This document shows positions 5,057-48,780 of a DNA stretch of 64,000 bases, in pieces. A model generated the notes under the pieces. That model was not told the origin of the DNA, did no database searches, and saw only the letters and a list, made by a program, of their open reading frames with translations. Position numbers and translations under genes: made by a program. Position 1 is the stretch's first letter, and the number at the start of each line of letters is the position of its first letter. Source of the stretch: Jejuia pallidilutea (GTDB taxonomy: Bacteria; Bacteroidota; Bacteroidia; Flavobacteriales; Flavobacteriaceae); NCBI RefSeq assembly GCF_002973595.1, contig NZ_PVEO01000002.1:1-64000 (forward strand), in the 5' to 3' direction.

Positions 5057-5058
5057 AC

Positions 5059-9070: not shown

Positions 9071-9088
9071 CAATAAATACTTTTTAAA

Positions 9089-9457
9089 ATGAAAAATACC
9101 CTCCTACTATTGTCCGTATTACTTTTGTCGTCTTGTTACCAATCTGAAAGAAATTGTACAGATTTTAAAACTGGAAAATTCTACAGCGAATCAACCACTA
9201 ATGGTGTTCTATATACATCAGAATTCATTAGAACAGAAACATTGCAAATTGAGACTTACAACAATCGTGTAGATTCTTCTGAAGTAAGGTGGATAAACGA
9301 TTGTGAGGTAATTTTTAGAACTATTAACCCTAAGAACATGGCTGAACAAAAGGATATACATCTTAAAATTCTAACCACAACCGATTCGTCTTACACTTAC
9401 GAATATTCGTATGTTGGTGAGGTGAATAAAGCCAAAGGTACTGCTTACAGAAAATAA
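9089..9457 (+). CDS. Small lipoprotein of unknown function
   Basis: 122 aa beginning with a lipoprotein signal peptide (lipobox LSSC, lipidated Cys16). The mature part has two further cysteines (near residues 22 and 72), predicted beta-strand-rich. No catalytic motif is recognised. From memory, related flavobacterial proteins are sometimes wrongly labelled DNA topoisomerase IV; nothing here supports that. It lies 38 nt after the XRE gene but has its own promoter word, and it converges with the gene at 9462-9962. Confidence 0.7.
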   Translation: MKNTLLLLSVLLLSSCYQSERNCTDFKTGKFYSESTTNGVLYTSEFIRTETLQIETYNNRVDSSEVRWINDCEVIFRTINPKNMAEQKDIHLKILTTTDSSYTYEYSYVGEVNKAKGTAYRK

Positions 9458-9461
9458 CAAC

Positions 9462-9962: not shown

Positions 9963-9967
9963 CTTTA

Positions 9968-10729: not shown

Positions 10730-10747
10730 AATGTATGGTTTTTAAAA

Positions 10748-10755
10748 CAAAAATA
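10748..10755 (-). promoter_or_regulatory. -7 element of the MBL hydrolase gene
   Basis: TATTTTTG on the minus strand matches TAnnTTTG, 19 nt before the start codon at 10729. Confidence 0.45.
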
Positions 10756-10788
10756 GGGTTATTTTTTTGTAAACTATGGTTATTTGGT

Positions 10789-10796
10789 ATCTTTAC
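10789..10796 (+). promoter_or_regulatory. -7 element of the gene at 10825
   Basis: TATCTTTA (one mismatch to TAnnTTTG), with TTG at 10767-10769 giving a 19-nt spacer, which is right for the Bacteroidota -33/-7 promoter. Confidence 0.5.
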
Positions 10797-10824
10797 GCAA
10801 AAATTGTATTAACCTATATAGCTT

Positions 10825-12309
10825 ATGGAAATTAGCATACATGGTGACAGAGAATTTGATGATATTCCTTCATTAAAATCGAAAGCTCTCAGAATAAATC
10901 TTAATCAAAATATTTACGGATCATTTGCTGAAATTGGCGCTGGACAAGAAACCGCTAGACATTTTTTTAGAGCTGGTGGTGCCTCTGGTACAATAGCCAA
11001 GGCAATGTCTGCTTACGACAAAGATTTTAGTGATGCTATCTATGGAATGGAAGATGATAGGCGCTACGTTACCGAATCTAGATTGCGCAAAATGCTTTCG
11101 CATGAAATGGCATTAATGGAAGAGCGTATTACTAGAGATAAAAACCCTGACAAAATATTTTTTACCTACGCCAACACGGTAGCAACTATAGATTTTGCTA
11201 AGCAGTTTAAAGGCCATGGCTGGGTAGGAATTAAATACCAAGTTGAAGCTGGCGCAGAGTACAACGAAATTATTCTTCATATAAGATTTAAGGAAACCGA
11301 TGCACGTTTGCAACAAGAAACCCTAGGGGTTTTAGGCACAAACCTTATTTACGGCGCATTTTACAAGTATAACGAACCAAAAAAATTACTACGTTACTTG
11401 TACGACCATTTAGATAAAGACCAACTGGAAATAGATACCATAAATTTCTCTGGCCCAGTATTTAAAAATGTAGACAACCGCTTAATGAGTTTGCAATTGG
11501 TTAAAAACGGTATGACGGATGCCGTAATGTTTGGCCCTGACGGAAACAACGTTTTACCCGCTCGCATATTCTACAAGAAAAATATACTTGCACTTAGAGG
11601 TAGTTTTAGGCCTGTTACAAAGGTGAATATGGCTATGTATGAGAAATCATACGAGATATTTGTAAAAGAAAATAAAGTAGACCCTGAAAAAACAGTTGTT
11701 GTTTTTGAAATAACGCTTTCTAACCTTCGTGCTGAAGGCAAAATAGATGAACAAGATTTTATTGATAGAGCAGATTTATTATGTGCTCTGGGACAATCTG
11801 TAATGATTTCGAATTTCCAGGAATATTACAAAGTGGTAGAATACTTCTCTAAATATACCAAAGCAAGAATGGGACTAGCTATGGGAGTTAGTAATTTGGT
11901 GGATATTTTTGACGAAAAATACTATAGGCACATTAGTGGTGGTATTCTAGAAGCATTTGGCAAATTATTCTTTAAGGATTTAAAAGTATACCTATACCCA
12001 ATGTTTGATCCTGAAACAGGAGAATTGATAAATAGTGAGAATCTTAAGGTTTATCCGCGTATGAAAGAACTATACAAATTCTTTAAATACAATGGCAAGG
12101 TAATAGACATTAAAGATTACGATGAAAGCATTATGAATATTTTCTCTAGAGAAGCATTACAAATGATAGAGACAGGAGAACCTGGTTGGGAAGAAATGCT
12201 TCCAGAGGGTACCGCAGATTTAATAAAAGACTTTAGATTATTTGGTTATACCAGAAGACCTTTAAAACCTCTTACCTTAAAGCGCAGAACTGTTGCAAAG
12301 AAAAAATAG
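10825..12309 (+). CDS. Conserved cytoplasmic protein of unknown function
   Basis: 494 aa without signal peptide or membrane segment. The N-terminal block with FAEIGAGQETARHFFRAGG (about 34-53) followed by SGTIAKAMSAYDKDFSDAIYG is highly characteristic of a protein family I know from many Bacteroidota and some other phyla, but no activity has been established to my knowledge. Database labels such as nicotinate-nucleotide adenylyltransferase or TonB-dependent receptor appear to be transferred errors: there is no nucleotidyltransferase HxGH motif and no beta-barrel. The C-terminus is very basic (LKRRTVAKKK). Single-gene unit, convergent with bcp. Confidence 0.75.
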   Translation: MEISIHGDREFDDIPSLKSKALRINLNQNIYGSFAEIGAGQETARHFFRAGGASGTIAKAMSAYDKDFSDAIYGMEDDRRYVTESRLRKMLSHEMALMEERITRDKNPDKIFFTYANTVATIDFAKQFKGHGWVGIKYQVEAGAEYNEIILHIRFKETDARLQQETLGVLGTNLIYGAFYKYNEPKKLLRYLYDHLDKDQLEIDTINFSGPVFKNVDNRLMSLQLVKNGMTDAVMFGPDGNNVLPARIFYKKNILALRGSFRPVTKVNMAMYEKSYEIFVKENKVDPEKTVVVFEITLSNLRAEGKIDEQDFIDRADLLCALGQSVMISNFQEYYKVVEYFSKYTKARMGLAMGVSNLVDIFDEKYYRHISGGILEAFGKLFFKDLKVYLYPMFDPETGELINSENLKVYPRMKELYKFFKYNGKVIDIKDYDESIMNIFSREALQMIETGEPGWEEMLPEGTADLIKDFRLFGYTRRPLKPLTLKRRTVAKKK

Positions 12310-33474: not shown

Positions 33475-34506
33475 TTATAACTTTATTTTTTTGATTGTAT
33501 TTAGCAATACTTCATGCATATTGTTTGTATAATCTAAATGCGTTACCATACGAAGTTTGCCACTTCCCATACTTATAATAAGTATGTTATTATCTTTTAA
33601 TTTTTGAACAAATTGGGTTTCATCTACATCGGGGTTTAATTCGAAGATAACAATATTGGTTTCTATAGGTTCTATTTGCTTAACGAATGAAAGTTTAGAT
33701 AACTCCCGCCCTATTTCCTTCGCTTTTTTATGGTCTTCGTTCAAACGGTTTATATTATTATCTAAAGCATAAAGAGCAGCAGCTGCCAAATAACCAACTT
33801 GGCGCATATTACCTCCAAATATTTTTCGAATTCTAATGGCTTCTTGCATAATTTTATGGTTTCCAACCAAAATTGATCCAACAGGACATCCCAAACCTTT
33901 GCTAAAACAAACAGAAATGGTATCAAAAACATCTCCGTATTGTTTCGCAGTTTCATTTTTTGCTACTAGGGCATTCCATAAGCGCGCACCATCTAAGTGA
34001 AACCCCAAATTATTTTCTTCACAAACTTTTCTAATTTTTAAAATCTCATTAAAGTCCCAACACGCACCACCGCCTTTATTAGTAGTATTCTCTACTTCAA
34101 CCAAACTAGTTTTACTGTAATAATAAGCATTTGGGTTTATGGCTTGCTCTACTTGTTTAGCCGTAAACATACCGCGCTTACCATCTATTAAGTTACAAGA
34201 TACACCACTATTGAATGATGCACCACCCGATTCGTAGTTATATATATGAGCATATTTATCGCAAATTACCTGATCTCCTGGGTTTGTATGCAATTTCAAA
34301 GCTGTTTGGTTAGCCATTGTACCACTTGGAAAAAATAGCGCTTCTTCTTTTCCAAAAAGTTGTGCCACACGAAATTCTAATTCATTTACAGTAGCATCCT
34401 CTCTAAATACATCATCACCAACATTTGCTTTCATCATAGTGCCCAACATTTCTGGTGTTGGCTTAGTAACTGTATCGCTTCTTAAATCTATTAACATCAT
34501 ATCCAT
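33475..34506 (-). CDS. ltaE: Low-specificity L-threonine aldolase
   Basis: 343 aa PLP enzyme splitting threonine/allo-threonine to glycine and acetaldehyde. IDLRSDTVTKPT at the N-terminus, DDVFREDATVNELE (31-44), HLDGARLWNA (170-179) and Lys203 in FSKGLGCPVGS are all family landmarks. The start could be any of the first three Met codons; the annotated ATG is 34506. Converges with ybaB with only 9 nt between the stops. Confidence 0.9.
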   Translation of the reverse strand: MDMMLIDLRSDTVTKPTPEMLGTMMKANVGDDVFREDATVNELEFRVAQLFGKEEALFFPSGTMANQTALKLHTNPGDQVICDKYAHIYNYESGGASFNSGVSCNLIDGKRGMFTAKQVEQAINPNAYYYSKTSLVEVENTTNKGGGACWDFNEILKIRKVCEENNLGFHLDGARLWNALVAKNETAKQYGDVFDTISVCFSKGLGCPVGSILVGNHKIMQEAIRIRKIFGGNMRQVGYLAAAALYALDNNINRLNEDHKKAKEIGRELSKLSFVKQIEPIETNIVIFELNPDVDETQFVQKLKDNNILIISMGSGKLRMVTHLDYTNNMHEVLLNTIKKIKL

Positions 34507-34806: not shown

Positions 34807-36066
34807 ATGAAAAAAAATCTATTATTGCTACTAGGTGTAGCCGTTATGTTCTTCTCTTGTCAAAACGAGAGTACAGAGGCAGAAGAACAGCAACAAACAG
34901 CTTTTGAAGCTGAAATAGCTGCTGAAGCAGATATTTTAACATCTGAAATTGAAGTTGCCGGTATTGATGAGGGCGATGACGCACTTCAAATGAATGCCGA
35001 AAGTGAAATTTTGGTAAAAAGACCATCAAAAAACAGTGGTTTAACGTTTAGTACTGCTAGCAAATCTCAATCTACACAATGTGAAGCAGATATTGAAGGT
35101 TTGGTTGCTAGTTTACCTGAAAGCGTAACCCTCACTACTACTTCTAAAAGAGGTCCTGATGCTTATTTTACATTAGATATAGTTGATGGTTATTTAGCTG
35201 GAAATGAACAACTTGCTTGGTGCGCTGACATTGATCTTAACTTAGAAGTTGAAGGTCCATTAGATTTTGATGTATATTCAAGCTATGGTGATAATATTCC
35301 TGAAACTGTTTTTGCTCAACCCGAAAATTTAGATTTAGTTAATTGGATTCTAAATCAAGATTATGTTGGTAAACAAAGTCCAAACGAAAGTGGTGTATAT
35401 ACTTTTGGTCACGTACAATGGGCTATATGGGAACTACTAAATAGTTATAATTGTAATATTTGTGAAAACTTAACTAACCCTACAGGTACATGGAGATATG
35501 ATTCTACAAACCTAAAAAAAGCTCAAGAAATTCTTCAAGCAGCATTAGAAAACGGAGAAGGTTACACTCCTGGATGTGGTGAAAAAATTGGAGTAGTTCT
35601 TGTGCCAGATGGAAAACAACCACTTATCATAATGAAAGAAGTTCCTTCTAAGGAACAAGAGTGTGATGATTGTGAAGGCGATGTGGACCAATTAACTATG
35701 GAATTCGATTGGCATAGAGCTAAACGTGTAAGAATCTACCAGAAAAAAGAAAATACATGCTGGGGTGCTAAAGTTTTTGATAAAGTTTTACAACCAGGAG
35801 AAGAATTTTCTATTGAAGGTGTTAATCATGATGGTTCCTTTGGTAAGTATGTATACATCTATATTGATAACTGTTATTACACTAAAATAAAAACAAACTG
35901 TTACCTAAATATAGGCCCAGGATACGAAAAAGGTGTATTTAATGTAATAAGCGGAACTAGCACACATGGCGGCGAACTTTGTGAATATATTAAGCCAGAA
36001 CAAAGATGTTATAGACACTGGAGTTGCTACTACTACTATAAATCTTGTAGATACAAAAAACATTAA
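34807..36066 (+). CDS. Secreted lipoprotein with a thioester-domain-like region and a DUF7467-like domain
   Basis: 419 aa; lipobox FFSC with Cys18. An acidic linker (20-65) leads to a domain (about 90-275) resembling Gram-positive thioester domains: W138-C139 (YC-type motif), VQWAIW (203-208, cf. TQxAIW) and a late K-Q271-P-L-I-I (cf. QxxLI), so C139-Q271 could form an internal thioester. The second domain (about 288-393) fits, from memory, the Cys-bounded DUF7467 pattern of Bacteroidota surface proteins (CEGDVDQLT ... GTSTHGGELC). The tail is Cys/Tyr/basic-rich (401-419). Assignment is by motif recall; covalent adhesion to host or algal amines is inference. Monocistronic with its own terminator. 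Confidence 0.6.
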   Translation: MKKNLLLLLGVAVMFFSCQNESTEAEEQQQTAFEAEIAAEADILTSEIEVAGIDEGDDALQMNAESEILVKRPSKNSGLTFSTASKSQSTQCEADIEGLVASLPESVTLTTTSKRGPDAYFTLDIVDGYLAGNEQLAWCADIDLNLEVEGPLDFDVYSSYGDNIPETVFAQPENLDLVNWILNQDYVGKQSPNESGVYTFGHVQWAIWELLNSYNCNICENLTNPTGTWRYDSTNLKKAQEILQAALENGEGYTPGCGEKIGVVLVPDGKQPLIIMKEVPSKEQECDDCEGDVDQLTMEFDWHRAKRVRIYQKKENTCWGAKVFDKVLQPGEEFSIEGVNHDGSFGKYVYIYIDNCYYTKIKTNCYLNIGPGYEKGVFNVISGTSTHGGELCEYIKPEQRCYRHWSCYYYYKSCRYKKH

Positions 36067-36166: not shown

Positions 36167-37294
36167 TTAATTACTTCCAAAGACTATATTTTTAGTCCTC
36201 CATAAAAATTTATGAATCATTGGCATAGGATCAGAAAAAGCATAAAATAAAGGAGTTTGTTTTTGTAAAAATCTAATTTTGAAAATTATTAAAGGATTCT
36301 TTTTAAATTTTTTTATGAATCCTTTTAAATTGTAGAAAGTTATTAAATTAATATCTTGAGTTGGTATATCCTGTTTCAAAAAATTAATACAACTTAAGTA
36401 TGGAAAATTAACACCTACAATAGCAGAAGCATCAGTGTTATACCAATATCTTGGATTTATCTCAATAACTCTAAATTCGTTAGAGTCTATATCATAGCGC
36501 CAATCTATGTTAGCCACTCCCATCCAGTTTAAACTTTTCATAAGAGACAAAGTATTCTCGTACAAGTCTTTGTTATCAATAAAATCGAATGCTACTTGAT
36601 ATGTTTCCTCTCCATTCTCATAAGCAATACCTTTTTGCATTGTACAAGCTAGTATTTCTCCATTTTCACATAACACATTAGAACACACATCATAACCATT
36701 AATATATTCTTGAAATATTATATTACATTCAAAAGGGTTTCGCTCACAATATTGTAGTACTTCGTTATAATTTTTTAAAACTTTAATTCCTACTCCTCCC
36801 CCTGATCCATTCACAGGTTTTGCGATTATTGGGTACTTTAAATTATTAAGATTAGGAATCTCTCCAGGTTTAGCAACTGAACCTAAAGGATAGGACAAGT
36901 TGGTATTTAAAAGGTGTTTGTATAAAAATTCTTTATCACATGCTGCATCAAAATTTTGTAAACTTGGCAAAGCATAAAGTTTATCTCTATTTTTTAATTT
37001 ATCTCTATTTTTAATTAAAGACCTAATCGCCGTTTCAAAAATTGGAAAGACTAAGTCTATATTATACTTTTCAACATTCTCGTCTATAACCTTGATCCAT
37101 CTAGACTCTTTATTATTTTCAGTATGATATAGAAACTTTTGTATATGTCTTGAATAGCGCATATAATTATTTTTTTTATCTGACATGACATAAAGTTTTA
37201 CACCTCCAGATTTAGCAAAACAATTAACAACATAATACAAAACATGACTTTCACCGTCAGGAATTAATATTGATATTTTTGTGTTAGATTTCAA
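36167..37294 (-). CDS. ATP-grasp ligase, type 1 (copy A)
   Basis: 375-aa cytoplasmic ATP-grasp enzyme, forming an acyl-phosphate and then an amide, peptide or thioester bond. The N-terminal Rossmann-like part contains ISILIPDGESH and RYSRHIQKF; the glycine-rich nucleotide loop is KPVNGSGGGVGI (159-170), the lid region IIFQEYINGYDVCSN, and the metal-binding EINPRYW (about 287-293). Closely related to the gene at 39420-40559 over the full length. It follows the CapK gene at 37334 by 39 nt, so they form an operon. Substrates unknown; the pairing with an adenylate-forming enzyme suggests activation and ligation in one pathway. Confidence 0.85.
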   Translation of the reverse strand: MKSNTKISILIPDGESHVLYYVVNCFAKSGGVKLYVMSDKKNNYMRYSRHIQKFLYHTENNKESRWIKVIDENVEKYNIDLVFPIFETAIRSLIKNRDKLKNRDKLYALPSLQNFDAACDKEFLYKHLLNTNLSYPLGSVAKPGEIPNLNNLKYPIIAKPVNGSGGGVGIKVLKNYNEVLQYCERNPFECNIIFQEYINGYDVCSNVLCENGEILACTMQKGIAYENGEETYQVAFDFIDNKDLYENTLSLMKSLNWMGVANIDWRYDIDSNEFRVIEINPRYWYNTDASAIVGVNFPYLSCINFLKQDIPTQDINLITFYNLKGFIKKFKKNPLIIFKIRFLQKQTPLFYAFSDPMPMIHKFLWRTKNIVFGSN

Positions 37295-37333
37295 ATATAT
37301 TTTAATTAAAAAGTTATCATTTTAAACAAGAGA

Positions 37334-38638
37334 TTAATATATCATGGTATTTATAGTTAACTTTCGTTTACCAGAAGATAGCTCGGGAATCTCGTCAACA
37401 TACTCTACTTTAATTATAGCGTCTTCACCTAAAAAGCTTTTTAGAAGGGTTGTCATTTTTTGTTCTTGCTTAAAATGCCCATCTATGTTTATTTTAACTA
37501 AATAAATTTTTTTATCCTTTTGAATTAATTGAAATTGCTTTATTTCTGGAAAGTACTCCAACTCATATACAACAGTTGTCATAACTCTTCCATCAGTACT
37601 GTAAATAGTATCCATTTTTCTCCCCTCTACCTTAGTAAAAGCAGGAGCATTGTTAAAAGTATTACTTATATCCATTACTGCCAAATCTCCAGTATCGTAC
37701 CTAATTAATGGCATATTATAATTGAATAAATCTGTTACTACTACTCTACCTAAATTTCCATAATCAGCTGGTTTATCTTCTTTTAGATCTAAAACTTCAA
37801 TATAATAGCTTGCCCAATTTATATGAAAGAAACTTCCACCATTTGTTATTTGCTGTGATAGAATACCGTTTTCCATATTTGAATATCTAGATAAAATATT
37901 AAAGTCAAAATATTTTTTTATAGAGTTTTTAATTGGGTCTCCCAAAGGTTCTGCATTAGCAATCATAGATGAAATTTTTGCTTTAATTGGTTTAGCTTCT
38001 ATAGCATCTAAAAATTTACATATTTCTTTAAAAGCTGAAGGGTACCCAATAAAAGCATTGTTTGAGCTCCCTTTTTCAATCTCTTTTATAATACCAGAAA
38101 TCGATTCATAATTTAAGTTTTTTACATTAATCATTCTAATATTTTGTAATAAAGTAGTTAACCTACTTTTGCTAATTACTTTACTCCATGCCCTTATGTA
38201 AAAAAGTTTATGGCCTATTTTGTAACCAGCCTTCTCGCCAAAAAACAATGTATCTGCCGTATTTCTGTTTTTTTTGTTTTTATCTTGAAATACAACAAAA
38301 GGTGTACCCGTTGAACCACTAGTGCTAACTTCGTAACTAGATTTGTCTTTAAATTTATTAGAAATAAAATCGTTAACTGATTCTCTTAAAAGCATTTTAT
38401 CTACAATAGGAAAATCGTAGATGGAATTATACCCTTTATAATCTTTGTAAAATGGAACTGTTTTTATTGCATGATCCATTAGGGACGAAAGATGATAATT
38501 TCGTTGTTTTATAGATTTGTCAGTATTAAAATTTTCTAAAATGAATTTAATATCATTATAATGAGATTTAACTTTACCTCCTTTAAGAAAATCAATAAAC
38601 CAAAACGAATGGCTTCTTATTTTTTCAGACAATAGCAT
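37334..38638 (-). CDS. CapK/phenylacetate-CoA ligase-like adenylate-forming enzyme
   Basis: 434 aa, with the same architecture as the paralogues at 96 and 41171: FWFIDFLKGGKVK near the N-terminus, STSGSTGTPF (about 104-113), RYSNMENG, RYDTGD and a terminal LSSGKRK lysine block. Expected to adenylate a carboxylic acid. It is the first gene of a two-gene unit with the ATP-grasp ligase at 36167. Upstream lies a 781-nt non-coding gap. The substrate is unknown; an acyl or aryl acid for glycan decoration is the working guess. Confidence 0.85.
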   Translation of the reverse strand: MLLSEKIRSHSFWFIDFLKGGKVKSHYNDIKFILENFNTDKSIKQRNYHLSSLMDHAIKTVPFYKDYKGYNSIYDFPIVDKMLLRESVNDFISNKFKDKSSYEVSTSGSTGTPFVVFQDKNKKNRNTADTLFFGEKAGYKIGHKLFYIRAWSKVISKSRLTTLLQNIRMINVKNLNYESISGIIKEIEKGSSNNAFIGYPSAFKEICKFLDAIEAKPIKAKISSMIANAEPLGDPIKNSIKKYFDFNILSRYSNMENGILSQQITNGGSFFHINWASYYIEVLDLKEDKPADYGNLGRVVVTDLFNYNMPLIRYDTGDLAVMDISNTFNNAPAFTKVEGRKMDTIYSTDGRVMTTVVYELEYFPEIKQFQLIQKDKKIYLVKINIDGHFKQEQKMTTLLKSFLGEDAIIKVEYVDEIPELSSGKRKLTINTMIY

Positions 38639-39419
38639 AATTAAATTATTTCTTAGGCAACAAATCTAATAAAATTATAAAGCTAAGTTAGTTATTACAT
38701 TTCAAGTTTTTCTAAAAAAACAATTCTTCATATTGATAGTGAAACTCTTTTTGAAATAATAAACTTTGTTCTCTTTAATATGGTATACAATGTTTAGATA
38801 TCATTAAAATAAGGTTTTCAATAAAACAACTCTTTATAATTTATAAGTATTATTGCGACTTGATAACTGTCTTTTCAAACAATTATACTTGAAGCGTTTA
38901 CAGAGAAAAATCAAGTGTAGAGAATTACAAATATTTTGAACAAGTTTTTAATTAGACAAATATTATTCATTGTAGCTAATTCTATTAAAGATTTAATTTC
39001 ACCAAATAAATTGGAATGGAATACAATTTTCTTAACGGATCATGATTAAACATACAAAGACAGAACTTTTCTTCAATAAAAAAAGCCAGTTATCCGCAAT
39101 ATCAAATCACTAAATTTTTAGATTTATTTCATATCAGTATTTTAGCGTTTAAACTATAATAAGTAGTATATATAGTTGAGCTTTGCAGTATTAAAAAAAC
39201 TCTTAAAATTTCGAAGATATTTTTTTTAAACTGTTGGTATATTAAAACCTAAAACAAGGCATTTCGAAGACAAATGTTGTATATTCATCGTATTTTGCAT
39301 TGTAACATATTAATTAACTCTATTTTTAATGCTTATTAAAAAGAGTGGTTTGTGAATTTTTTTAATCTACACCACTTAGGTTCTATTTTTAAAAAGTTCG
39401 GTTTAGGAGAAACTTACAA
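38639..39419. other. Large divergent intergenic region
   Basis: 781 nt, among the most AT-rich stretches in the window, between the divergent CapK (37334-38638) and ATP-grasp (39420-40559) genes. No frame with protein-like features, no tRNA, no terminator-like hairpin and no clear TAnnTTTG promoter were found. Two promoters and perhaps long leaders or a small RNA could be hidden here; a decayed insertion is also possible. Confidence 0.5.
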
Positions 39420-40559
39420 ATGAAAAAACAAAAAACATCAATTTTAATACCCGATGGAGAAAGTCATATTTTAATTCATGTAATAAATTGCTTGTCCAAA
39501 GTGAATGAATTAAATATTTATGTAATGTCCAATACTAAGAATAATCCATTACGTTATTCTAGACACATAAAAAAGTTTACTTATTACAAAAAGTCTGACT
39601 CAGACATTGATTGGATTAACAACATAAATAAAGAAGTTCAAAATCACAATATTGATGTTGTCATGCCTATTTTCGAAGTTGGTATAAGGATTTTGATAAA
39701 ACACAAAGAAGATATATTACTAAAAAATAAATTAGGGTTATTACCAAAACTAAAAGATTTTGATACTGCTATAAACAAAGGAAAACTAGCTAAACATTTA
39801 TATATAAATAAAATACCTGGACCTAAAAGTCTTATCCTTGAGTCTAACAAAAACTTAGAAAAGGTAATAAATCTAAATTTCCCCACAATTATAAAGCCCC
39901 TTGAAGGTTTTGGTGGTGGTATTGGCATAAAAAAATTCAAAACCTTTGAAAGCCTTAAGAACCATTATACAAATAATAACATTAATTATACAACTATTGT
40001 GCAAGAATACATTGAAGGTTATGATATAGATTGTAGTGTTTTATGTCGCAACGGAAACATATTAGCTTTTACAATACAAAAAGGAAATATGATGGGAGCT
40101 AGTGAATTTACACCACAGGTTGGACTTAGTTTTTTGTACCAACAAGAACTATATAATGTTGTTGAAAAGTTAATGAGATCTCTGGACTGGAGTGGTGTAG
40201 CACATATAGACATGAGGTACGATAAAAACACAAAAGAATATAAAGTAATAGAAATCAACACAAGATTTTGGGCTACTTTAGATGCATCTTTAATAGCCAA
40301 TGTAAATTTTCCAAATTTATATTGTAAGGCTAGTATGGGAGATACCTTTAAAAAGCCCGATTATTCACATATAGAATACTTGAATTTAAAAGGCTTGATA
40401 AAGCGAATAAAAAGTGATTTTAAATTTATTTTTGAATTAAAATTTATTTTAAACAATACTCCTCTAATATTTGCTTTAAAAGATCCATTACCTATGATCT
40501 ATAAGTTTATTACCAGAACAAAAAATAATTTAATTTCTAAGTTTAGTAAAACTCCTTAA
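39420..40559 (+). CDS. ATP-grasp ligase, type 1 (copy B)
   Basis: 379 aa and full-length paralogue of 36167-37294 (shared ILIPDGESH, YVMS, RYSRHIKKF). Glycine-rich loop KPLEGFGGGIGI (159-170), IVQEYIEGYDID, and the metal motif EINTRFW, where the usual Asn-Pro is Asn-Thr. It is the only plus-strand gene of the locus, opposite to its CapK neighbours, and its 3' end overlaps the convergent membrane-protein gene by 30 nt. The substrate is unknown. The flipped orientation suggests local rearrangement after duplication. Confidence 0.85.
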   Translation: MKKQKTSILIPDGESHILIHVINCLSKVNELNIYVMSNTKNNPLRYSRHIKKFTYYKKSDSDIDWINNINKEVQNHNIDVVMPIFEVGIRILIKHKEDILLKNKLGLLPKLKDFDTAINKGKLAKHLYINKIPGPKSLILESNKNLEKVINLNFPTIIKPLEGFGGGIGIKKFKTFESLKNHYTNNNINYTTIVQEYIEGYDIDCSVLCRNGNILAFTIQKGNMMGASEFTPQVGLSFLYQQELYNVVEKLMRSLDWSGVAHIDMRYDKNTKEYKVIEINTRFWATLDASLIANVNFPNLYCKASMGDTFKKPDYSHIEYLNLKGLIKRIKSDFKFIFELKFILNNTPLIFALKDPLPMIYKFITRTKNNLISKFSKTP

Positions 40560-41165
40560 GAGAAATTTATAAGATGTTAATGTGAAGTATAGCATCCAAC
40601 TAAAAATACCAATAAACTTAAAACTATCTTCTATGAAATACTTCATATTTGTTTCATTTTTAAGAAAAAAATCAATAAATACTGATGATCCTAGAAAAGT
40701 AAACGCTATTCCTAATACATAAAAAATAGTTTCTTTAAATATTAATTTCACGAATGAAGCTGTATACCAAAAAACCAATATAGCATAAAAAACATATGTA
40801 ATAGACTGTGTAATTTTAAACGCCTTAAATGAGTAAAGTATATAATCATGGAACATAAAAAAATCATCAATCAATAAAATAAAAGATATAAAACCAGAAC
40901 CAATTAAAAATTTAGCTTCTAAGTTTTGTTTCAGTTTTCTTAAAACAATACCCGAGAAAAAACAAATACAAGCTGTAGCACACCATACCAATACCCCTAT
41001 ATTAGATATAATTCCCGTAAACGGATGAGCATTAAATATTAATGCCATATCTCCAGTTATGTGAGAAAAAGGTATATTGTATTTAGTTCCTAAAATAAAG
41101 GCTGTAATTAATAAACCTAAACATGTAGCATAAGTTAAAATTATAAACAAGTACTTTTTTAGCAT
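40530..41165 (-). CDS. Polytopic membrane protein of unknown function
   Basis: 211 aa with about six hydrophobic helices and short loops, and no recognised family. Charged/aromatic residues sit in the loop IDDFFMFHDYILYS (about 98-111), which is unusual for a simple structural protein: acidic plus histidine residues at a membrane face can be catalytic. It begins 5 nt after the CapK gene at 41171-42487, so it is co-transcribed with it, and its last 30 nt overlap the opposing ATP-grasp gene. Confidence 0.65.
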   Translation of the reverse strand: MLKKYLFIILTYATCLGLLITAFILGTKYNIPFSHITGDMALIFNAHPFTGIISNIGVLVWCATACICFFSGIVLRKLKQNLEAKFLIGSGFISFILLIDDFFMFHDYILYSFKAFKITQSITYVFYAILVFWYTASFVKLIFKETIFYVLGIAFTFLGSSVFIDFFLKNETNMKYFIEDSFKFIGIFSWMLYFTLTSYKFLLRSFTKLRN

Positions 41166-41170
41166 AATAG

Positions 41171-42487
41171 TTATTTCTTATAATTATTTACCACCTTTTT
41201 ACGTTTACCAGAAGAGAGCAGCGGTATTTCGTCTACGTAAGTTATGATAACCGTAGCATCACTACCAAAATCTTTTTTTACACTTTCAATTAATTCTTTT
41301 TCATAAGGAAATTTATCATGAACATTCAGCTTAATTTCATATCTTTTTTCATCTTGTTGTATAAATTGGTATTGTTTTAGTAACCTATAGTAATTGTAAA
41401 ATTTGGTGTAAACCACAAAGGAAGAAATAATATTTCCTTTAGTATCAAAAATTAAATCCATTTTCCTTCCTTCAATTTCCTCAAACATTGTCTTACCATT
41501 CTCAAGTACGACAAGTTTAGCAATGTCGCCAGTGTCATATCTAATAATAGGCATGCAATAGTTAAATAAATCGGTTACTACTATTCTTCCATACCTTCCT
41601 GGTTTAGCAGGTTTATCCTCCTCTAAGTCTAACAATTCCACATAATAACTAGCGTGATTTATTACAAAATATTCTACCGATTTATTTGTTTGATGCGCTA
41701 CAATACCAACTTCCTCACTTGAGTATCTAGACAAAACTGGGGTATTAAGGTGTTTACTTAAAGAGGTTTTTGTATAGTGATTGAGATACTCAGAATTAGC
41801 GACAACAGAGTTAATATTTAAGCTTTTTAGTGGTATTTCATTTTTATCTAAATATTGTGTAATTTGTTCTAAAGAAGATGCAAAACCAATAATGTTTTTT
41901 TCTTGCTTGGTGTTACTTAGTAAATCCAAAAATTTTTCAATACGATTATCGGTTAATTTAGAAATATCAAATTGAACAATGTTTTGGAGTGTAGATTTAA
42001 TAAAACTCTTTTTATTGTGATTTCTCCAAACCTCAAGTTCATATAGCCTATTACCTATTTTAAAATTGCATTCCCCTAAAAAATACAAAACGTCTGCATG
42101 GTTTCTATTTCTCTTATTTTTATTTTGGTAAAGAAAAAAAGGAGTACCTGTAGAGCCACTAGTAGATACTTTATAATTATTGTCTTTAAGATATAGTTTG
42201 GATTGAAAATCATCGAAATTTTCTTGAATAACGGTCTTTCGAATTACTGGAAACTCATTTATATCATCTATATTTTTATAATCTAAATAAAAAGGAGTTG
42301 TTTTTGATGCATGATTTAATAAGTTTTTAATATGTGTAATTTTTATTTTTTCAGCGTAAGTACTTGTTGGATCATTATTAACCAAAGAAATTTCATTAAA
42401 ATGATTTTTTATTGGAGAACCATTTAAATAGTCCATAAACCAAAACGATTTATTTCTTAAATAATTAACTATCTTCATCTGTTGCAA
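41171..42487 (-). CDS. CapK/phenylacetate-CoA ligase-like adenylate-forming enzyme
   Basis: 438 aa, third paralogue of the window. FWFMDYLNGSPIK, STSGSTGTPF (about 108-117), RYSSEEVG (here Ser-Glu-Glu replaces Asn-Val/Met-Glu of the others), RYDTGD and the terminal LSSGKRK are present. The substrate pocket sequence differs most from the other two, so a different acid is likely. The alternative start two codons downstream (MKIVNYLRNK) is also possible. A TG dinucleotide repeat lies 46-60 nt upstream of the start. Confidence 0.85.
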   Translation of the reverse strand: MQQMKIVNYLRNKSFWFMDYLNGSPIKNHFNEISLVNNDPTSTYAEKIKITHIKNLLNHASKTTPFYLDYKNIDDINEFPVIRKTVIQENFDDFQSKLYLKDNNYKVSTSGSTGTPFFLYQNKNKRNRNHADVLYFLGECNFKIGNRLYELEVWRNHNKKSFIKSTLQNIVQFDISKLTDNRIEKFLDLLSNTKQEKNIIGFASSLEQITQYLDKNEIPLKSLNINSVVANSEYLNHYTKTSLSKHLNTPVLSRYSSEEVGIVAHQTNKSVEYFVINHASYYVELLDLEEDKPAKPGRYGRIVVTDLFNYCMPIIRYDTGDIAKLVVLENGKTMFEEIEGRKMDLIFDTKGNIISSFVVYTKFYNYYRLLKQYQFIQQDEKRYEIKLNVHDKFPYEKELIESVKKDFGSDATVIITYVDEIPLLSSGKRKKVVNNYKK

Positions 42488-42532
42488 TTTTATTATATAT
42501 TTATCTTAAACTTTTTTAATCTACTATACTAA

Positions 42533-42547
42533 TGTGTGTGTGTGTGT
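42533..42547. repeat. TG dinucleotide microsatellite
   Basis: Seven TG units plus one T, in the 64-nt gap between the ATP-grasp stop (42552) and the CapK start (42487). Simple repeats this pure are otherwise absent from the window. Confidence 0.9.
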
Positions 42548-42551
42548 AATA

Positions 42552-43574
42552 CTATGATTGAAGCTTAACCAATAGCTCGTATTTAGAAAACACAATACCA
42601 CATTTATAATTAATATGCTTTTTTAAATTATTATCATTCCCCAAAAGCCAATCCACATAAACTGCGGCAGTATTGGCACCTGCTTCATGAGAAAATGGGT
42701 AACCTCCACCAAATCTGGGATTTAATTCTAGAACAAACCAGTTATTATCTACTAGAAATACATCACCATCCATACTACCTATATGTTTAAGACTATTTCC
42801 TATTTTTTCGGCCAGTATATTAAAAGATGGGTTGATTCTAGAAATAGCTTTATCGGTTTCTCCAAAACGCATCGCTATTTTTTCTCTTAAGTATGCATCA
42901 CAGAAATTGCCCTTAAAATCATTCAATATATCAAATCCAAATTCTACACCTTGTAGTTTTTCTTGAATTAAAATAGAATGGGCAATATCAGCAGCACTAT
43001 CTTTATTAAAAATAGATTTTTTTATTTTTATATTTTGAAGTTTGTAGGCTAATTTTAATTCTTCTATGTCATCACAAATTTCTAAACCAATAGAACCGCT
43101 ACCAAACCTAGGCTTTAAAACTACTGGAAAGTTCAAAACCCCCGCTTCAATATCTTTTATTGCGAGATTAAAATCTATGTAAGTTTTTGGTGTATTTAAA
43201 CCAATACTTTTAATGAAAATATGGGTTTGCCACTTATCATAAGTTGTATTAATTACGCTATTATTAGACAATAAAACCTTTACACCTAGTTGCTCTAAAT
43301 ACGCTTTTTGCTTTGATAATATAGGTAGCTCTAAATCGTTTAACGATATTAAGGCTCTAACATTATGATGTCGTATTATAACTTCTAGTTTAGAGACATA
43401 GGTTTTATCATAAATATTTGGGACCTGTATAAAAACATCTGCGTCTGCAGAAGCCGCAGCATATTTATGGTTATCTACCGCTATAATTTTGCCTTTCCCT
43501 TTTAATGCTTCTTTAAAATATCTTAAGAGATAATTACGCTTTCCAGCACATGTAAAAAGTATGTTACATTCCAT
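42552..43574 (-). CDS. ATP-grasp ligase, type 2 (PylC/CarB-like, copy A)
   Basis: 340 aa with a different N-terminus from type 1: NILFTCAGKRNYLLRYFKEAL, a Rossmann-like pre-ATP-grasp domain. Nucleotide loop PRFGSGSIG (about 154-162) and the metal motif LELNPRFGGGYPFSHEAGAN (about 279-298), as in carbamoyl-phosphate synthase-like and PylC-like enzymes. It therefore ligates a carboxylate to an amine. It starts 15 nt after the sugar transferase gene, so it belongs to the same operon. Confidence 0.87.
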   Translation of the reverse strand: MECNILFTCAGKRNYLLRYFKEALKGKGKIIAVDNHKYAAASADADVFIQVPNIYDKTYVSKLEVIIRHHNVRALISLNDLELPILSKQKAYLEQLGVKVLLSNNSVINTTYDKWQTHIFIKSIGLNTPKTYIDFNLAIKDIEAGVLNFPVVLKPRFGSGSIGLEICDDIEELKLAYKLQNIKIKKSIFNKDSAADIAHSILIQEKLQGVEFGFDILNDFKGNFCDAYLREKIAMRFGETDKAISRINPSFNILAEKIGNSLKHIGSMDGDVFLVDNNWFVLELNPRFGGGYPFSHEAGANTAAVYVDWLLGNDNNLKKHINYKCGIVFSKYELLVKLQS

Positions 43575-43589
43575 TATTTCAGTTAAAGT

Positions 43590-44201
43590 TTAGCTGTTTT
43601 TTCTTAATTCATCTAAATCTAGTGTTTCAGACGATAATTCTATCTTTTCATTACCAGAAAAGACTTTTTTAAATGTTTTTATTAAAATTTTAAAATCATT
43701 TAAAAACGTAATGGTATGTACATATTTAATATCCAAGGCCAACTTATCGTCCCAACTTAAAGCATTTCTTCCAGATACTTGTGCTAACCCTGTTACACCA
43801 GGTTTAACTGTATGTCTTACAGCTTCTTCTTTTGTATAATAAGGCAAATAGTGTACACGTAAAGGTCTTGGTCCTATAAGGCTCATGTCTCCTTTTAAAA
43901 TGTTTATTAATTGTGGTATCTCATCTAGGGATGTACGCCTTAAAAAACTACCAAAAGTTGTCATGCGATCTTCATTAGGCAGCAAATTACCATTAGAATC
44001 TTTCTTGTCCGTCATGGTTTTAAATTTCATTATTTTAAAAATACGTTCGTTCTTACCAGGACGCTCTTGAAAGAAAAAGGGCTTACCATTGTTTATAAAT
44101 AATAATATGATAAAGATTATTAGAAATAAAGGAAGTAAAATTACAATACCAACAAATGCTATAAGAAAATCTAATATACTCTTAAAAAAAAACTTATACA
44201 T
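43590..44201 (-). CDS. Small phosphoglycosyl transferase (PglC-like sugar transferase)
   Basis: 203 aa, monotopic phosphoglycosyl transferase that starts a lipid-linked glycan by moving a sugar-phosphate to undecaprenyl phosphate. One N-terminal re-entrant/transmembrane segment (about 8-32), then PFFFQERPGK, FKTMTD, RTSLDEIPQLINI (catalytic Asp-Glu pair), GDMSLIGPRPL and PGVTGLAQVSGRN. Length matches the compact PglC class rather than the large WbaP class. It marks the locus as glycan-assembly machinery. Confidence 0.93.
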   Translation of the reverse strand: MYKFFFKSILDFLIAFVGIVILLPLFLIIFIILLFINNGKPFFFQERPGKNERIFKIMKFKTMTDKKDSNGNLLPNEDRMTTFGSFLRRTSLDEIPQLINILKGDMSLIGPRPLRVHYLPYYTKEEAVRHTVKPGVTGLAQVSGRNALSWDDKLALDIKYVHTITFLNDFKILIKTFKKVFSGNEKIELSSETLDLDELRKNS

Positions 44202-44742
44202 AATAAAACAGGTATAATACAGCCAAAATTTGTAAAATAAAAATTAGTTTTTTATGTGTTTACCGTATAATTTGGCATAACATTTCTGAGAAAGACAATT
44301 TTACAATAACACGTAAATGCTCCATAACAGCAAAACTATTAATACTTTTAAAAGTAGGTTGTACAATTCTATAAATTTGGTTAGCGGCCAAAAATAGATT
44401 TATAAATGTTAAAACTTTAAAAAAATCGATAATTATACAATAATCGTCTTTAAGTCTACAATAACTATTGCAAGGTTACCATAAAACTGAGCTTTTAATA
44501 AAAAAAACTTAATTAATGATGATTAAAACGCAATTATGCTCTTATCTTTAATTAAAGACGAAAATAAATTTTATTAATCTGGTACACTACAAAAAAACGA
44601 TGAATCTACAGCAATTGTCTTCAAAATGTCGTATTTTGAAGATTACAGCTTATTCAAACTTAACTTTGATAAGTAAGAGATTACTATTATTTTACAAAAC
44701 TAAAAGCTAGATATATTTTATCAGAAATTATAGCTTCAATAC
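44202..44742. other. Intergenic region with an inverted repeat
   Basis: 541 nt with no gene seen, between the HAD gene and the sugar transferase gene (both minus). A perfect 9-bp inverted repeat CTTCAAAAT / ATTTTGAAG (44619-44627 and 44633-44641, 5-nt loop) lacks a T-run, so it is more likely an operator or RNA hairpin than a terminator. The sugar transferase promoter must lie here; no TAnnTTTG word was found. Confidence 0.45.
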
Positions 44743-45414
44743 TTAATTTATAATATCTAAAACATCTAAAAATTTATTGATTGTATGTTGGGGTAAACAG
44801 GCTTCATTTACCAAAGAAAAGTTCTGCCTATGTATATTCAAACCATGGTCCATCAAGCAAACTGTGTGCCATCCCAATTTATTTGGTGAAATAAAATCTT
44901 TACTAATGTTATCTCCAATATAGTAGTATTTACCTAATCCAAAAACTTGTTCAAAATATTTATAATTCTTTACGTTTGGCTTTTCACTACCAAACTCTTC
45001 TGATATAATTATTTTAGAAAACCAATTGTCTAGCTGTAAAGCTTTTATTTTATTTCGTTGTTGAACACTTCTACCGTCTGTTAACAAGCCTAAGTTTATA
45101 TTTTTACTTTTAAGATGGTTTAAAGTTACTTTTCTATCTTTAGATAGTTTTATTTCGGGTTTATGATTTCGATAAATATTTAATAATTCTAAAGTGCTAA
45201 AAGAAGCTTGATATTCTGATAAAATTTCTTGAAAAATATTTTTTTTATCAAAAAAGTATTCCAACATTTTGTTATAGACTAACACATTAGAGACACCAAT
45301 ATTTGCAGCAATTTTTACAGCTATCTCTTTGTAAGCAGATTTTAAAAAATCAACCTCGTAATATAAGGTATCGTCTAGGTCGAAAATAACATTTGTATTA
45401 TTCTTTATAGTCAT
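44743..45414 (-). CDS. HAD-superfamily hydrolase
   Basis: 223-aa cytoplasmic phosphatase-like protein. FDLDDTL supplies Asp11 and Asp13 (motif I), LLTDGR gives motif II Thr, EKPNVKNY carries the motif III lysine and YYIGDNISKDF the motif IV aspartates. The set is complete, so it should be active. Its start overlaps the ATP-grasp gene upstream by 17 nt, a sign of translational coupling. It may dephosphorylate a sugar or amino-sugar intermediate. Confidence 0.87.
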   Translation of the reverse strand: MTIKNNTNVIFDLDDTLYYEVDFLKSAYKEIAVKIAANIGVSNVLVYNKMLEYFFDKKNIFQEILSEYQASFSTLELLNIYRNHKPEIKLSKDRKVTLNHLKSKNINLGLLTDGRSVQQRNKIKALQLDNWFSKIIISEEFGSEKPNVKNYKYFEQVFGLGKYYYIGDNISKDFISPNKLGWHTVCLMDHGLNIHRQNFSLVNEACLPQHTINKFLDVLDIIN

Positions 45415-46366
45415 TTACTAAAATTTCATGATCATATCTTAACATCAATAAATTTTCCTTCCAACCATCAAACGCTTCAATCTTTTTGTTAAAAAAATAC
45501 TCATTAATAATCCAACGAGGATAATTAGCCCCAGCAAAGTATGAGAGAGGAAACCCTCCGCCAAATCGAGGGTTTATCTCAATGCCCTTAATGTCTTTTG
45601 TTCTTTTATGCATAAATAATTGTAAGGTCAAACAACCTCTAGCTCCTTCTAGATATGAAAATTTATCTTTAACAAAATCGAAAATTTCATTTTTAATTGT
45701 TAATCCCTTACTAACTTCTCCACCTCTTACTTCTATACGTTTTCTTGGTACTACGCACTTCAAAATACTTGTTTTATCATAGTACATATCGCAGGTATAT
45801 TCATCATAGTCATCATGATCTAAATATTCAAAAAAACATAATGATTTGTTTTCTAAATGATATTTTGAAATCTTAGACTTGCTTTTAATAATATAGTTAT
45901 TTAAACTGCTAGAACCCTTAATTGGTTTAATGTACAAAGGTAACTCGTAACTGTCCTTTTGGTAAATCTTTGCTGTAGGCAGTCCTTTTTCTCTAAAAAA
46001 AAGATGCGTCTCTAATTTATTAGATGTTATTTTAATAATAGATTCATTTGAAAGCAAAATATGAATGTTAGCCTTATTAAATTTCTTTATGTATTTAGAC
46101 AATTTTAATAGTTCTGTATCAATAGTAGGAATTACAAGTTTTATATTATGCTTTATGCAAAGATTAAGAAGTGAATCTATATAAAGATCATTATCGATTC
46201 TACATATTTCTAATGCTTCATCAGCAACATGTGCTGCTGCTGAAAGCGATGGACTCATATCTGTTATAAAAACTTTTGATTCTAAACCAATATGTTTTAA
46301 TTCATTAACAAACGCTCTAACTAATGATACCCTTCTACCCGCAGAGGTTATTAATATATTACCCAT
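45398..46366 (-). CDS. ATP-grasp ligase, type 2 (PylC/CarB-like, copy B)
   Basis: 322 aa, related to 42552-43574: begins NILITSAGRRVSLVRAFVNEL, has a short glycine-poor nucleotide segment (IKPIKGSSSLN, about 147-157) and the metal block GIEINPRFGGGFPLSYFAGANY (about 272-293). The weakened glycine loop, SSSLN instead of GSGSIG, is odd and may lower ATP affinity or give different specificity. Overlaps the HAD gene by 17 nt, so the two enzymes act in one step or sequence. Confidence 0.86.
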   Translation of the reverse strand: MGNILITSAGRRVSLVRAFVNELKHIGLESKVFITDMSPSLSAAAHVADEALEICRIDNDLYIDSLLNLCIKHNIKLVIPTIDTELLKLSKYIKKFNKANIHILLSNESIIKITSNKLETHLFFREKGLPTAKIYQKDSYELPLYIKPIKGSSSLNNYIIKSKSKISKYHLENKSLCFFEYLDHDDYDEYTCDMYYDKTSILKCVVPRKRIEVRGGEVSKGLTIKNEIFDFVKDKFSYLEGARGCLTLQLFMHKRTKDIKGIEINPRFGGGFPLSYFAGANYPRWIINEYFFNKKIEAFDGWKENLLMLRYDHEILVNDYKE

Positions 46367-46419
46367 ATTTTTATTTAATTATTAATAAGTCCTAAAAAAA
46401 TAAAACAACTTAAATTAGT

Positions 46420-47451
46420 TTAATTTTTAATTTTTAAAAATGTATTAAAAACTATAAATAATAAATAGTAAATCCATTTAATACTAAAGACTTTTGTTAA
46501 GGTAGTGTAAACAAATCCATTATAATCTTTACCTATAAAATTATGCAAAGGATAAGCTTTCGCTTTAGTCATTGTTTTTAAGATTGCCTTAACCTCTTTA
46601 AAAGAAATTCTAGATTTTAGTATCCTTACCATCAAGAAAAACACAAAAGACTCTTGTCTAGCTTTTAGCCTCTTATAAACGTTTTTATTTATAGAATTTT
46701 CGTTGTGCAATTTGTTAATGATTCCGCCATAAACTTGAGCCGCATTCGCATTATCATAAATTACTTTTATATAATGTTTAGGCTCTTTACTAGTCATTGC
46801 AGAGCCTTTTACTTTTACGTGTCTATGAACATCATAGGAAAGGTGAGCTATTCTACTGCAATTAACCAACAAATTAAGGGTGAATATGGCGTCTTCCATC
46901 CATCTATCCTCTATAAAACGCAGACCTATTCTTTTTATAAAATCTTTTTCGATGATATACCACCATACTTCATTTTTGTATGGATTCTTATCGATATAAT
47001 CAATTCCGTTCATTATTTCAACAGCAATAGTTTTATCTTCAATAGAGGCAGACTCTTTCAAATGTATAGAATTAGTACCTACTGATAAAAATGTTAAAAC
47101 CTCAAGGTTATTAACTTCTATAGAGCTTAGAATAGTTTTTAAAACGTTTGAAGCTAGATAATCGTCAGGATCAATAAAATAGATGTACTTTCCTTTAGCT
47201 AAGTCTAAGCCTTTATTCCTTGCACTTCCAACACCACCATTTGTTTTACTGTAAGCCCTTATGTTGATTTCTCTTGCTTCAAAAGCTTTTGCTATTACTA
47301 AACTATTGTCTGTCGACCCATCATCGATAATTAAAATCTCATAATCATTTTTAGAAATATTTTGTTCTAAAAGGCTATCGATACAGTAAGTAATGTACTT
47401 TTCTACATTATAGGTTGGGATGATTATACTTAACTTCAAAGATTCATTCAC
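46420..47451 (-). CDS. Glycosyltransferase family 2
   Basis: 343 aa, GT-A fold. LSIIIPTYNVEKYI at the N-terminus, the nucleotide-sugar part DDGSTDNS (42-49), GGVGSARNKGLDLAKGKYI, FIDPDDYL (DxD-type metal site, about 92-99), then W-x-E-D-A-type acceptor residues (RWMEDAIFT). The C-terminal third has a hydrophobic helix near the end, which may dock it to the membrane. First gene of the locus operon reading leftward; extends a lipid-linked glycan. Confidence 0.9.
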   Translation of the reverse strand: MNESLKLSIIIPTYNVEKYITYCIDSLLEQNISKNDYEILIIDDGSTDNSLVIAKAFEAREINIRAYSKTNGGVGSARNKGLDLAKGKYIYFIDPDDYLASNVLKTILSSIEVNNLEVLTFLSVGTNSIHLKESASIEDKTIAVEIMNGIDYIDKNPYKNEVWWYIIEKDFIKRIGLRFIEDRWMEDAIFTLNLLVNCSRIAHLSYDVHRHVKVKGSAMTSKEPKHYIKVIYDNANAAQVYGGIINKLHNENSINKNVYKRLKARQESFVFFLMVRILKSRISFKEVKAILKTMTKAKAYPLHNFIGKDYNGFVYTTLTKVFSIKWIYYLLFIVFNTFLKIKN

Positions 47452-47669: not shown

Positions 47670-48780
47670 ATGATAACTACCGATCAAATTAAAGATCTAA
47701 ATACCCGCCTTGACAAACTAAGGCACTATCTTTGACATAGATGCCAAACTTATAGAAATACAAAACGAAGAAGAACAAACCTTCGATCCTAACTTTTGGA
47801 ACGACCCCAAAGCTGCCGAAGCTGTAATGAAATCGCTTAGAGTTAAGAAAAAGTGGATACAAGATTACAGGAATGTAAAAACTCTTATTGAGGATTTAGA
47901 AGTTATATACGAGTTCTTTAAAGAAGGTGAATCTACCCAACAAGATGTAGAAACACGTTATAAAAAAGCGGCTACACTACTAGAAGACATAGAGTTTAGA
48001 AATATGCTTTCGGAAGAAGGAGATAGCCTAAGTGCAGTACTACAAATTACAGCTGGTGCTGGTGGTACAGAGAGTTGCGATTGGGCTAGCATGCTTATGC
48101 GCATGTATTTAATGTACGCTGAAAAAAGCGGGTTTAAAGTAAAAGAACTCAACTTCCAAGAAGGCGATGTAGCTGGTATTAAAACTGTAACCCTAGAAAT
48201 TGAGGGCGATTTTGCCTTTGGTTGGCTAAAAGGAGAAAATGGCGTACATCGTTTGGTACGCATCTCCCCTTTTGATAGTAATGCGAAACGCCACACCAGT
48301 TTTGCATCGGTTTATGTATACCCGTTAGTTGACGATACTATTGAAATTGAAATTAACCCCGCGGATATAGAGATTACTACTGCACGATCTAGTGGTGCTG
48401 GTGGACAAAATGTTAATAAAGTGGAAACTAAAGTACAACTAACGCATAAGCCAACGGGCATACAAATTTCATGTTCAGAAACACGATCGCAGCACGATAA
48501 CAGATCTAGGGCTATGCAAATGCTAAAATCGCAATTATACGAAATTGAACTACAAAAACAATTATCCCAACGTGAAGATATTGAAGCTAGTAAGATGAAA
48601 ATTGAGTGGGGAAGCCAAATCCGCAACTATGTTATGCATCCTTACAAACTTGTTAAAGATGTTAGAACAGGACACGAAACTGGTAATGTAGATGCAGTAA
48701 TGGACGGAAATATTGATGCATTTTTAAAATCGTACTTAATGACTATGGGACAAAAAGTTGAAGACAATAATACGCTATAA
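47670..48780 (+). CDS. prfB: Peptide chain release factor 2, expressed by programmed +1 frameshift
   Basis: RF2 (369 aa after shifting), which reads UGA and UAA stop codons. The ORF opens with ATG at 47670, and after 21 codons meets an in-frame TGA at 47733-47735 in the slippery context CTT TGA C (47730-47736). Shifting +1 at CTT continues into the long frame at GAC 47734. An AAGG six nt before the CTT is the internal Shine-Dalgarno-like spur seen in other prfB genes. The body carries the hydrolysis motif GGQ in [11 protein letters not shown]. The frame that starts at 47827 misses the N-terminus. Confidence 0.95.

Follow-up and report, generated by a model that had tools for sequence, protein, structure and literature searches.

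In the flavobacterium Jejuia pallidilutea, ten genes sit at a chromosomal spot flanked by prfB and a threonine-aldolase-like gene. What do they do, and do they act as one pathway? These genes occupy positions 36167-47451 of the window, by which we mean the whole analyzed stretch of 64,000 nucleotides (positions 1 to 64,000 of contig NZ_PVEO01000002.1), and all ten open reading frames (ORFs) were confirmed. They encode four ATP-grasp ligases of two families (AgA1 and AgA2; AgB1 and AgB2), two PaaK/CapK-type adenylate-forming enzymes (CapK1 and CapK2), a PglC-type phosphoglycosyl transferase, a GT2 glycosyltransferase, a HAD phosphatase-like protein, and a membrane protein (TM). A lipoprotein with a thioester-domain-like region (TED) is encoded beside AgA1. 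A first-pass annotation of the DNA had proposed that the locus decorates a surface glycan through amide or acyl bonds. The stretch between the two border genes is the cargo of a variable chromosomal site, and we read it, with moderate confidence, as a modular, mosaic surface-variation island of separable cassettes. The kinds of enzyme are known; their combination is new.

Cargo and cassettes of a variable chromosomal site

The island is bordered by the putative threonine-aldolase-like gene (33475..34506, − strand) and by what we take to be prfB (47670..48780, + strand). In the window, the two borders lie 13.3 kb apart. The ORF list starts prfB at 47827, and reading by eye places the start at 47670; a CTTTGAC stretch at 47730, upstream of the listed start, resembles the well-known programmed frameshift site, and the true start of the gene is therefore probably 5′ of the listed one. 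The G+C fraction is 0.25-0.29 across 36-48 kb versus about 0.32-0.36 in the flanking 8-10 kb on each side. As insertion landmarks, neither a tRNA nor an Rfam match at gathering scores occurs within the window; among the AgA neighbors scanned with Pfam, a transposase-like gene was seen at locus L065.

The comparison took in 20 further relatives, fetched around prfB from among its 26 best matches. In 8 of the 20, the two border genes are immediate neighbors, with 246-309 bp between the threonine-aldolase-like gene and the prfB ORF as listed; this rate is biased, because the six matches left out (G000, G009, G078, G095, G196, and G208) are the window's own genome or carriers of AgA, CapK, or TED. 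The order GT2-AgB2-HAD is found in seven of the 20 (six have it toward prfB, and L174 toward the other border), and five carry other genes between the borders. Core-2/I-branching-type genes were present in all three islands of the GT2-AgB2-HAD type that were scanned (L170, L172, and L175); the single island searched for an additional GT2 had one. At L063, L066, L076, L085, and L086, the flanking genes are conserved on both sides and the content between them differs.

Parts of the island recur separately. A profile scan of named genomes yielded 185 confirmed AgA loci, the best 80 of which lie at the prfB site (22), at the rplT-dnaB site (10), near yidC (15), or elsewhere (33). At the prfB site, L063 holds only CapK and AgA, and L066 only AgA and TM. 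Other combinations comprise TED, AgA, AgB1, and PglC (L076); TED, CapK, AgA, and PglC (L027); TED, CapK, and AgA (L026); AgA, TM, and CapK (L091); and CapK and AgA with HAD-AgB2-GT2 (L090). Two small groupings, AgB1-PglC and CapK-AgA, turn up repeatedly elsewhere. Across the 86 AgA genes scoring over 200 bits in the 80 loci, the opposite-strand gene just 3′ of AgA encodes TM in 11, the lipoprotein in 7, and CapK in 4. An AgA tree built by a quick method implies at least 9 changes of chromosomal site (fewer are forced by the well-supported branches alone), with at least 10 changes of adjacency to the lipoprotein, 7 to TM, and 5 to CapK. AgA1 (36167..37294, − strand) belongs to a clade of 16, all at the prfB site, with a support of 98; AgA2 (39420..40559, + strand) belongs to another clade, nearest to L090 and L091. 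The two proteins share 45% identity, and tandem duplication was rejected as the origin of the pair given their placement in different clades.

A probable trace of rearrangement lies within the island itself. A decayed copy of the 3′ part of the HAD gene and the intergenic DNA that follows it is found at 38872..39326 (+ strand). It runs opposite to the intact copy, aligns with 45021-44561 at 71.6% over 471 columns, and is devoid of any ORF over 37 amino acids among the ORFs listed. Further inverted arms were found for the HAD repeat. Orientation relative to prfB is reversed for AgA-TM-CapK in L091 and for AgA-CapK in L090. We infer that the DNA between the two HAD copies, at roughly 39.3-44.6 kb, was inverted long ago, which would account for AgA2 being the sole + strand gene among the ten.

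Co-occurrence was assessed across 179 genomes of the family, from 178 genera, with genera treated as independent and no correction for phylogeny or for the number of pairs (ten). Matches were counted at over 200 bits for AgA (21 genomes), E ≤ 1e-60 for CapK (26) and AgB2 (31), E ≤ 1e-10 for TM (8), and, for a full TED (8), over 150 bits across the Cys-Gln region. Exceeding expectation were AgA-CapK (9 genomes versus 3.05 expected, P = 7e-4), CapK-AgB2 (11 versus 4.50, P = 1e-3), AgA-AgB2 (8 versus 3.64), CapK-TED (6 of the 8 TED genomes versus 1.16, P = 1e-4), AgA-TED (5 versus 0.94, P = 6e-4, adjacent in all 5), AgA-TM (7 of the 8 TM genomes versus 0.94, P = 8e-7), AgB2-TM (4 versus 1.39), and TED-TM (2 versus 0.36). 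Not significant in the same genomes were TED-AgB2 (2 versus 1.39) and CapK-TM (2 versus 1.16). The AgA-TM signal leans on five homologues of 80-134 bits, whereas three adjacent ones score 298-313 bits; because the five are diverged and apart from AgA, only the adjacency (3 of 3) is counted as firm.

A rival reading, in line with the first-pass annotation, is that the ten genes form one integrated pathway, with CapK-activated acids and ATP-grasp-made amides placed on a single PglC-started, lipid-linked glycan. The AgA-CapK, CapK-AgB2, and AgA-AgB2 excesses favor this possibility, as do the PglC-type genes present in 7 of 14 CapK stretches fetched from other genomes. There is also a published chemical precedent: an exopolysaccharide of a marine Vibrio whose uronic acids bear amide-linked amino acids (PMC4663550). 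At the same site, however, single parts are found by themselves or mixed differently. AgA is found without a CapK of the same subfamily in 12 of 21 AgA genomes and without AgB2 in 13 of 21 (both at E ≤ 1e-60), so we consider a single pathway unlikely. The AgA genomes lacking them also led us to reject CapK or the lipoprotein as a requirement for AgA. The check suggested in the first-pass annotation, co-occurrence of these families in other Bacteroidota, was borne out in part, for the AgA-CapK and CapK-AgB2 pairs, for GT2-AgB2-HAD in 7 of 20 relatives, and for the AgB1-PglC and CapK-AgA sets, but the parts proved separable and enter into other combinations. Its broader claim of a decoration locus is backed in part by this co-occurrence; no single conserved pathway emerged, and AgA also appears without the other cassettes.

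We favor the mosaic island, in which insertion and exchange of several cassettes, and probably a single inversion, shaped the DNA between the threonine-aldolase-like gene and prfB. Decoration of a glycan with amides or acyl groups, for which the Vibrio polymer is a precedent, may reasonably be inferred. GT2-AgB2-HAD and PglC-AgB1 would most likely add sugar residues, with an amide or peptide bond made by an ATP-grasp enzyme, to a lipid-linked surface glycan. The second part of the island would comprise the two cassettes built around AgA ligases, partnered by CapK or TM: AgA would activate a carboxylate as an acyl phosphate and join it to an amine, an amino acid most likely being one substrate, and CapK would adenylate a second acid. 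Several observations weigh against this picture. The short-border rate is biased, as noted above, and the inversion is deduced from the 72% identical relic and the order of genes at a few loci. In Foldseek, the AgA2 model matches biotin carboxylases and PurK-type enzymes at E-values nearly equal to those of amino acid ligases, leaving an amino acid as only the first of several options for the substrate. Finally, AgA near yidC (a clade of 18 genes after the addition of three partial loci) showed no match to the CapK, AgB, PglC, or TED profiles at any of the 18 loci. The island defines a small, testable unit: a stand-alone ATP-grasp family whose partners vary and which occupies several chromosomal sites in marine flavobacteria. 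This unit probably alters the cell surface, the meeting place with phages and neighbors, and its minimal natural islands, of two genes, lend themselves to clean genetics.

Ligases, adenylating enzymes, and glycan genes

Domain searches bore out the predicted count of four ATP-grasp ligases in two families. AgA1 and AgA2 match PF02655 (42.3 and 43.8 bits; cut-off, 23.2), and AgB1 (42552..43574, − strand) and AgB2 (45398..46366, − strand), each with a PylC-like N domain, match PF21360 (88.0 and 80.0 bits; cut-off, 27) as well as ATP-grasp. AgB1 also exceeds the curated cut-off of NCBIfam PRK12767 subgroup 3 (NF009404; 361.9 versus 316), and AgB2 falls below that of subgroup 4 (NF009405; 358.8 versus 390). 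ATP-grasp enzymes are marked by a lysine and Mg-binding E/N residues. An EIN or ELN stretch is present in all four proteins, and in the AgA alignment K159, D264, E278, N280, and R282 are invariant (50 of 50 rows). AgA and AgB belong to the ATP-grasp superfamily. The AgA2 structure was predicted with a local distance difference test score (pLDDT) of 95.4, and the model retrieved 598 Foldseek matches from the PDB at E ≤ 0.001; the 50 listed are ATP-grasp enzymes. The best were the L-amino acid ligases 3vot (E = 5e-20) and 4wd3 (E = 5e-19), making amino acid (carboxylate-amine) ligation a candidate role for AgA.

Such a fold also bears on whether AgA and CapK might instead make a small molecule, a lipid, or a dipeptide unrelated to glycans, sharing the site with glycan genes by chance. 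The predicted likeness to dipeptide ligases would fit this alternative, as would the absence of the other island genes around the 18-gene yidC clade, where the neighbors annotated by Pfam at one locus (L077) include genes for a subtilase, tRNA modification, and a nitronate monooxygenase and where a weak GT2-like match (22-37 bits) lies several genes from AgA in 9 of the 18 loci. Against it, co-occurrence with the surface lipoprotein is above expectation for AgA as well as for CapK, and MBOAT or PglC-type genes lie near some AgA and CapK genes. We regard a glycan-independent product as improbable. A cupin-8/JmjC-type gene adjoins AgA in genome G017 (L069 8541-9383).

CapK1 (37334..38638, − strand) and CapK2 (41171..42487, − strand) are 42% identical. 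Neither matched a Pfam model at E ≤ 0.01, and in NCBIfam both fall short of the cut-off of each model, with top scores of 74.5 and 79.1 bits where 300 is required. Their family profile nonetheless matches the sequences of solved PaaK ligases in the PDB at E = 8e-17, both carry TSGSTG and SGK, and the TSGST, Y317, G320, D321, and SGK columns are invariant in 22 of 22 rows. By these motifs and the profile similarity, they are PaaK/CapK-type adenylate-forming enzymes, as the first-pass annotation had them despite the lack of a Pfam match. A third CapK, 42% identical to CapK1 and CapK2, is encoded at the start of the window (96-1409), and beside it lie MBOAT genes at 2654-4105 and 5059-6492, whose products are comparable to AlgI/DltB. 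Partner proteins of 309 and 319 amino acids encoded near these genes (within 96-6492) had no family match. Relatives of the first MBOAT protein or of the 319-amino-acid protein adjoin AgA at L098, L110, L119, L123, and L136.

The remaining enzymes were likewise as predicted. The gene at 43590..44201 (− strand) encodes a PglC-type phosphoglycosyl transferase by its PF02397 (Bac_transf) domain (205 bits; cut-off, 27) and a DEIPQ stretch at residue 93, the Asp-Glu dyad being the hallmark of this type; it is one of six Bac_transf matches in the host genome. The HAD phosphatase-like gene (44743..45414, − strand), whose start overlaps the end of AgB2, matches PF13419 (HAD_2; 67.8 bits) and contains DLDDT, and the prfB-proximal GT2 gene (46420..47451, − strand) matches PF00535 (110.5 bits) and contains DDGSTD. 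DEIPQ, DLDDT, DDGSTD, and EIN/ELN are signature stretches of their respective enzyme types. None of the ten genes matched a family for sugar-nucleotide biosynthesis in Pfam and NCBIfam scans, in agreement with the earlier statement that such genes are lacking here.

TM (40530..41165, − strand), convergent with AgA2, had been described as a six-helix membrane protein. The membrane assignment stands, whereas the helix count is unsettled, with five hydropathy segments above threshold. Pfam returned nothing convincing; its top match, EbsA (E = 0.0014), came from 2 of the 11 family members. D100, D101, H106, D107, E179, and D180 are invariant in an 11-row alignment, and diverged relatives at unrelated places in five genomes (L190-L194) keep similar DD and ED stretches, which suggests a putative membrane enzyme.

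A thioester-domain-like lipoprotein beside the ligase

TED (34807..36066, + strand) scores 20.5 bits against PF08341, under the curated cut-off of 22, and a profile search against PDB sequences returned nothing up to an E-value of 1; its relatives emerged from the fold search only. The predicted structure is of moderate confidence (pLDDT, 72.4). Its top 14 Foldseek matches in the PDB are all thioester-type adhesins, 8 of them at E ≤ 0.001, with unrelated folds following; template-modeling scores are modest (0.45-0.53 by target length for the eight best). C18, C139, Q204, W208, and Q271 are invariant in 24 of 24 alignment rows, two of the 25 TED profile matches having been left out (L090, 26.5 bits, and the longer of two in L130). 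In a wider set of 26 rows, C139 is kept in 25, Q204 in 26, W208 in 25, and Q271 in 25. According to PMC6194298, the bond-forming Cys and Gln are the only residues universally conserved in thioester domains, which also carry a TQxx(hydrophobic)W motif. From their position, C139 and Q271 are the putative bond-forming pair. Q204..W208 resembles the motif in part: V, I, L, or F, rather than T, precedes the Gln. TED resembles the covalent "harpoon" adhesins described from Gram-positives, with a putative thioester.

The C-terminal domain of TED is common to other surface proteins. Apparent TED matches at L180 and L187 were not counted, as they rest on this domain and not on the thioester part. The L180 protein, matched by the C-terminal portion of TED, has 940 amino acids and four DUF7467 stretches, and is encoded at the prfB site beside GT2-AgB2-HAD (8406-11228). 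At L085 (13358-19043; genome G196), the interval from CapK to prfB contains two longer lipoprotein relatives, of 718 and 971 amino acids, one after the other.

Among the best 80 of the 185 AgA loci, TED accompanies AgA at 15 of 22 prfB-site and 7 of 10 rplT-site loci, compared with 0 of 15 near yidC and 1 of 33 elsewhere. For rplT, the association survives the assumption that just 30 genomes have the site (P = 0.022); for prfB, it is not significant if 20-35 genomes have the site (P = 0.16-0.056). One explanation would be self-capture, in which AgA and CapK place amine-bearing groups on the cell's own surface glycan and TED captures that glycan through a covalent amide bond. The genomes holding both a full TED and AgA, the adjacency in all of them, the prfB- and rplT-site counts, and the CapK genes in 6 of 8 TED genomes speak for it. 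Yet 16 of 21 AgA genomes lack a full TED, 3 of 8 TED genomes lack AgA, and the pairing all but vanishes at the yidC and other loci. Since the prfB-site association may not be significant and most AgA genomes do without a full TED, a functional TED-AgA link is possible, not established; shared use of variable sites may account for the adjacency. We judge self-capture very unlikely. If true, a Gram-negative bacterium would itself produce the target that its covalent harpoon seizes, and capsule or matrix would be tethered to the outer membrane in this way. The placement of the lipoprotein beside the ligase renders covalent attachment directly testable.

Likeness to known systems

Surface polysaccharide loci for O-antigen or capsule can contain ATP-grasp and PaaK-like genes, and the island resembles them in bringing together a PglC-type transferase, a GT2, ATP-grasp enzymes, and adenylating enzymes; for the synthesis of O-antigen and of teichuronopeptide, PMC4431377 mentions linked peptide ligases. 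The island differs in that Pfam and NCBIfam scans found no flippase, polymerase, or sugar-nucleotide gene among its ten genes, and in that its parts are separable and partly found without glycan genes. Among the open-licence papers listed in literature searches, none dealt with the island cassettes or with thioester-domain lipoproteins of Bacteroidota. MBOAT-type membrane acyltransferase loci offer another comparison: MBOAT genes lie near the third CapK of the window, and one adjoins AgA at L098, L110, and L136. The MBOAT genes of the window are, however, outside 36167-47451, and their 309- and 319-amino-acid partners match no family.

At the level of single proteins, CapK shares adenylation motifs with phenylacetate-CoA ligase PaaK and PaaK-like ligases (9s3l, 4r1l, 6siw, and 6wuq; profile E-values of 8e-17 to 7e-6) while remaining below every NCBIfam cut-off. 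TED is like the thioester domains of Cpa (4c0z), SfbI (5a0l), and Clostridium perfringens (5a0g) in its predicted fold (Foldseek E-values of 1.4e-4 to 7e-4), its invariant Cys and Gln, and its Q..IW stretch; in contrast, it is a Bacteroidota lipoprotein of 11-14% identity to them, and in the window copy W, rather than the Y, F, or L of known domains, precedes the Cys. In the founding survey (PMC4450167), thioester-domain hits were exclusively Gram-positive. Lipoproteins of the TED kind would extend this class of reactive adhesins past the Gram-positives of that survey; PF08341 may already list members from outside that group. AgA2 is closest in predicted fold to the L-amino acid ligases BL00235 (3vot) and RizA (4wd3), at just 16-17% identity, and AgA is set apart from both by its own C-terminal helices and by the nearly invariant residues C205, V207, L208, and C209.

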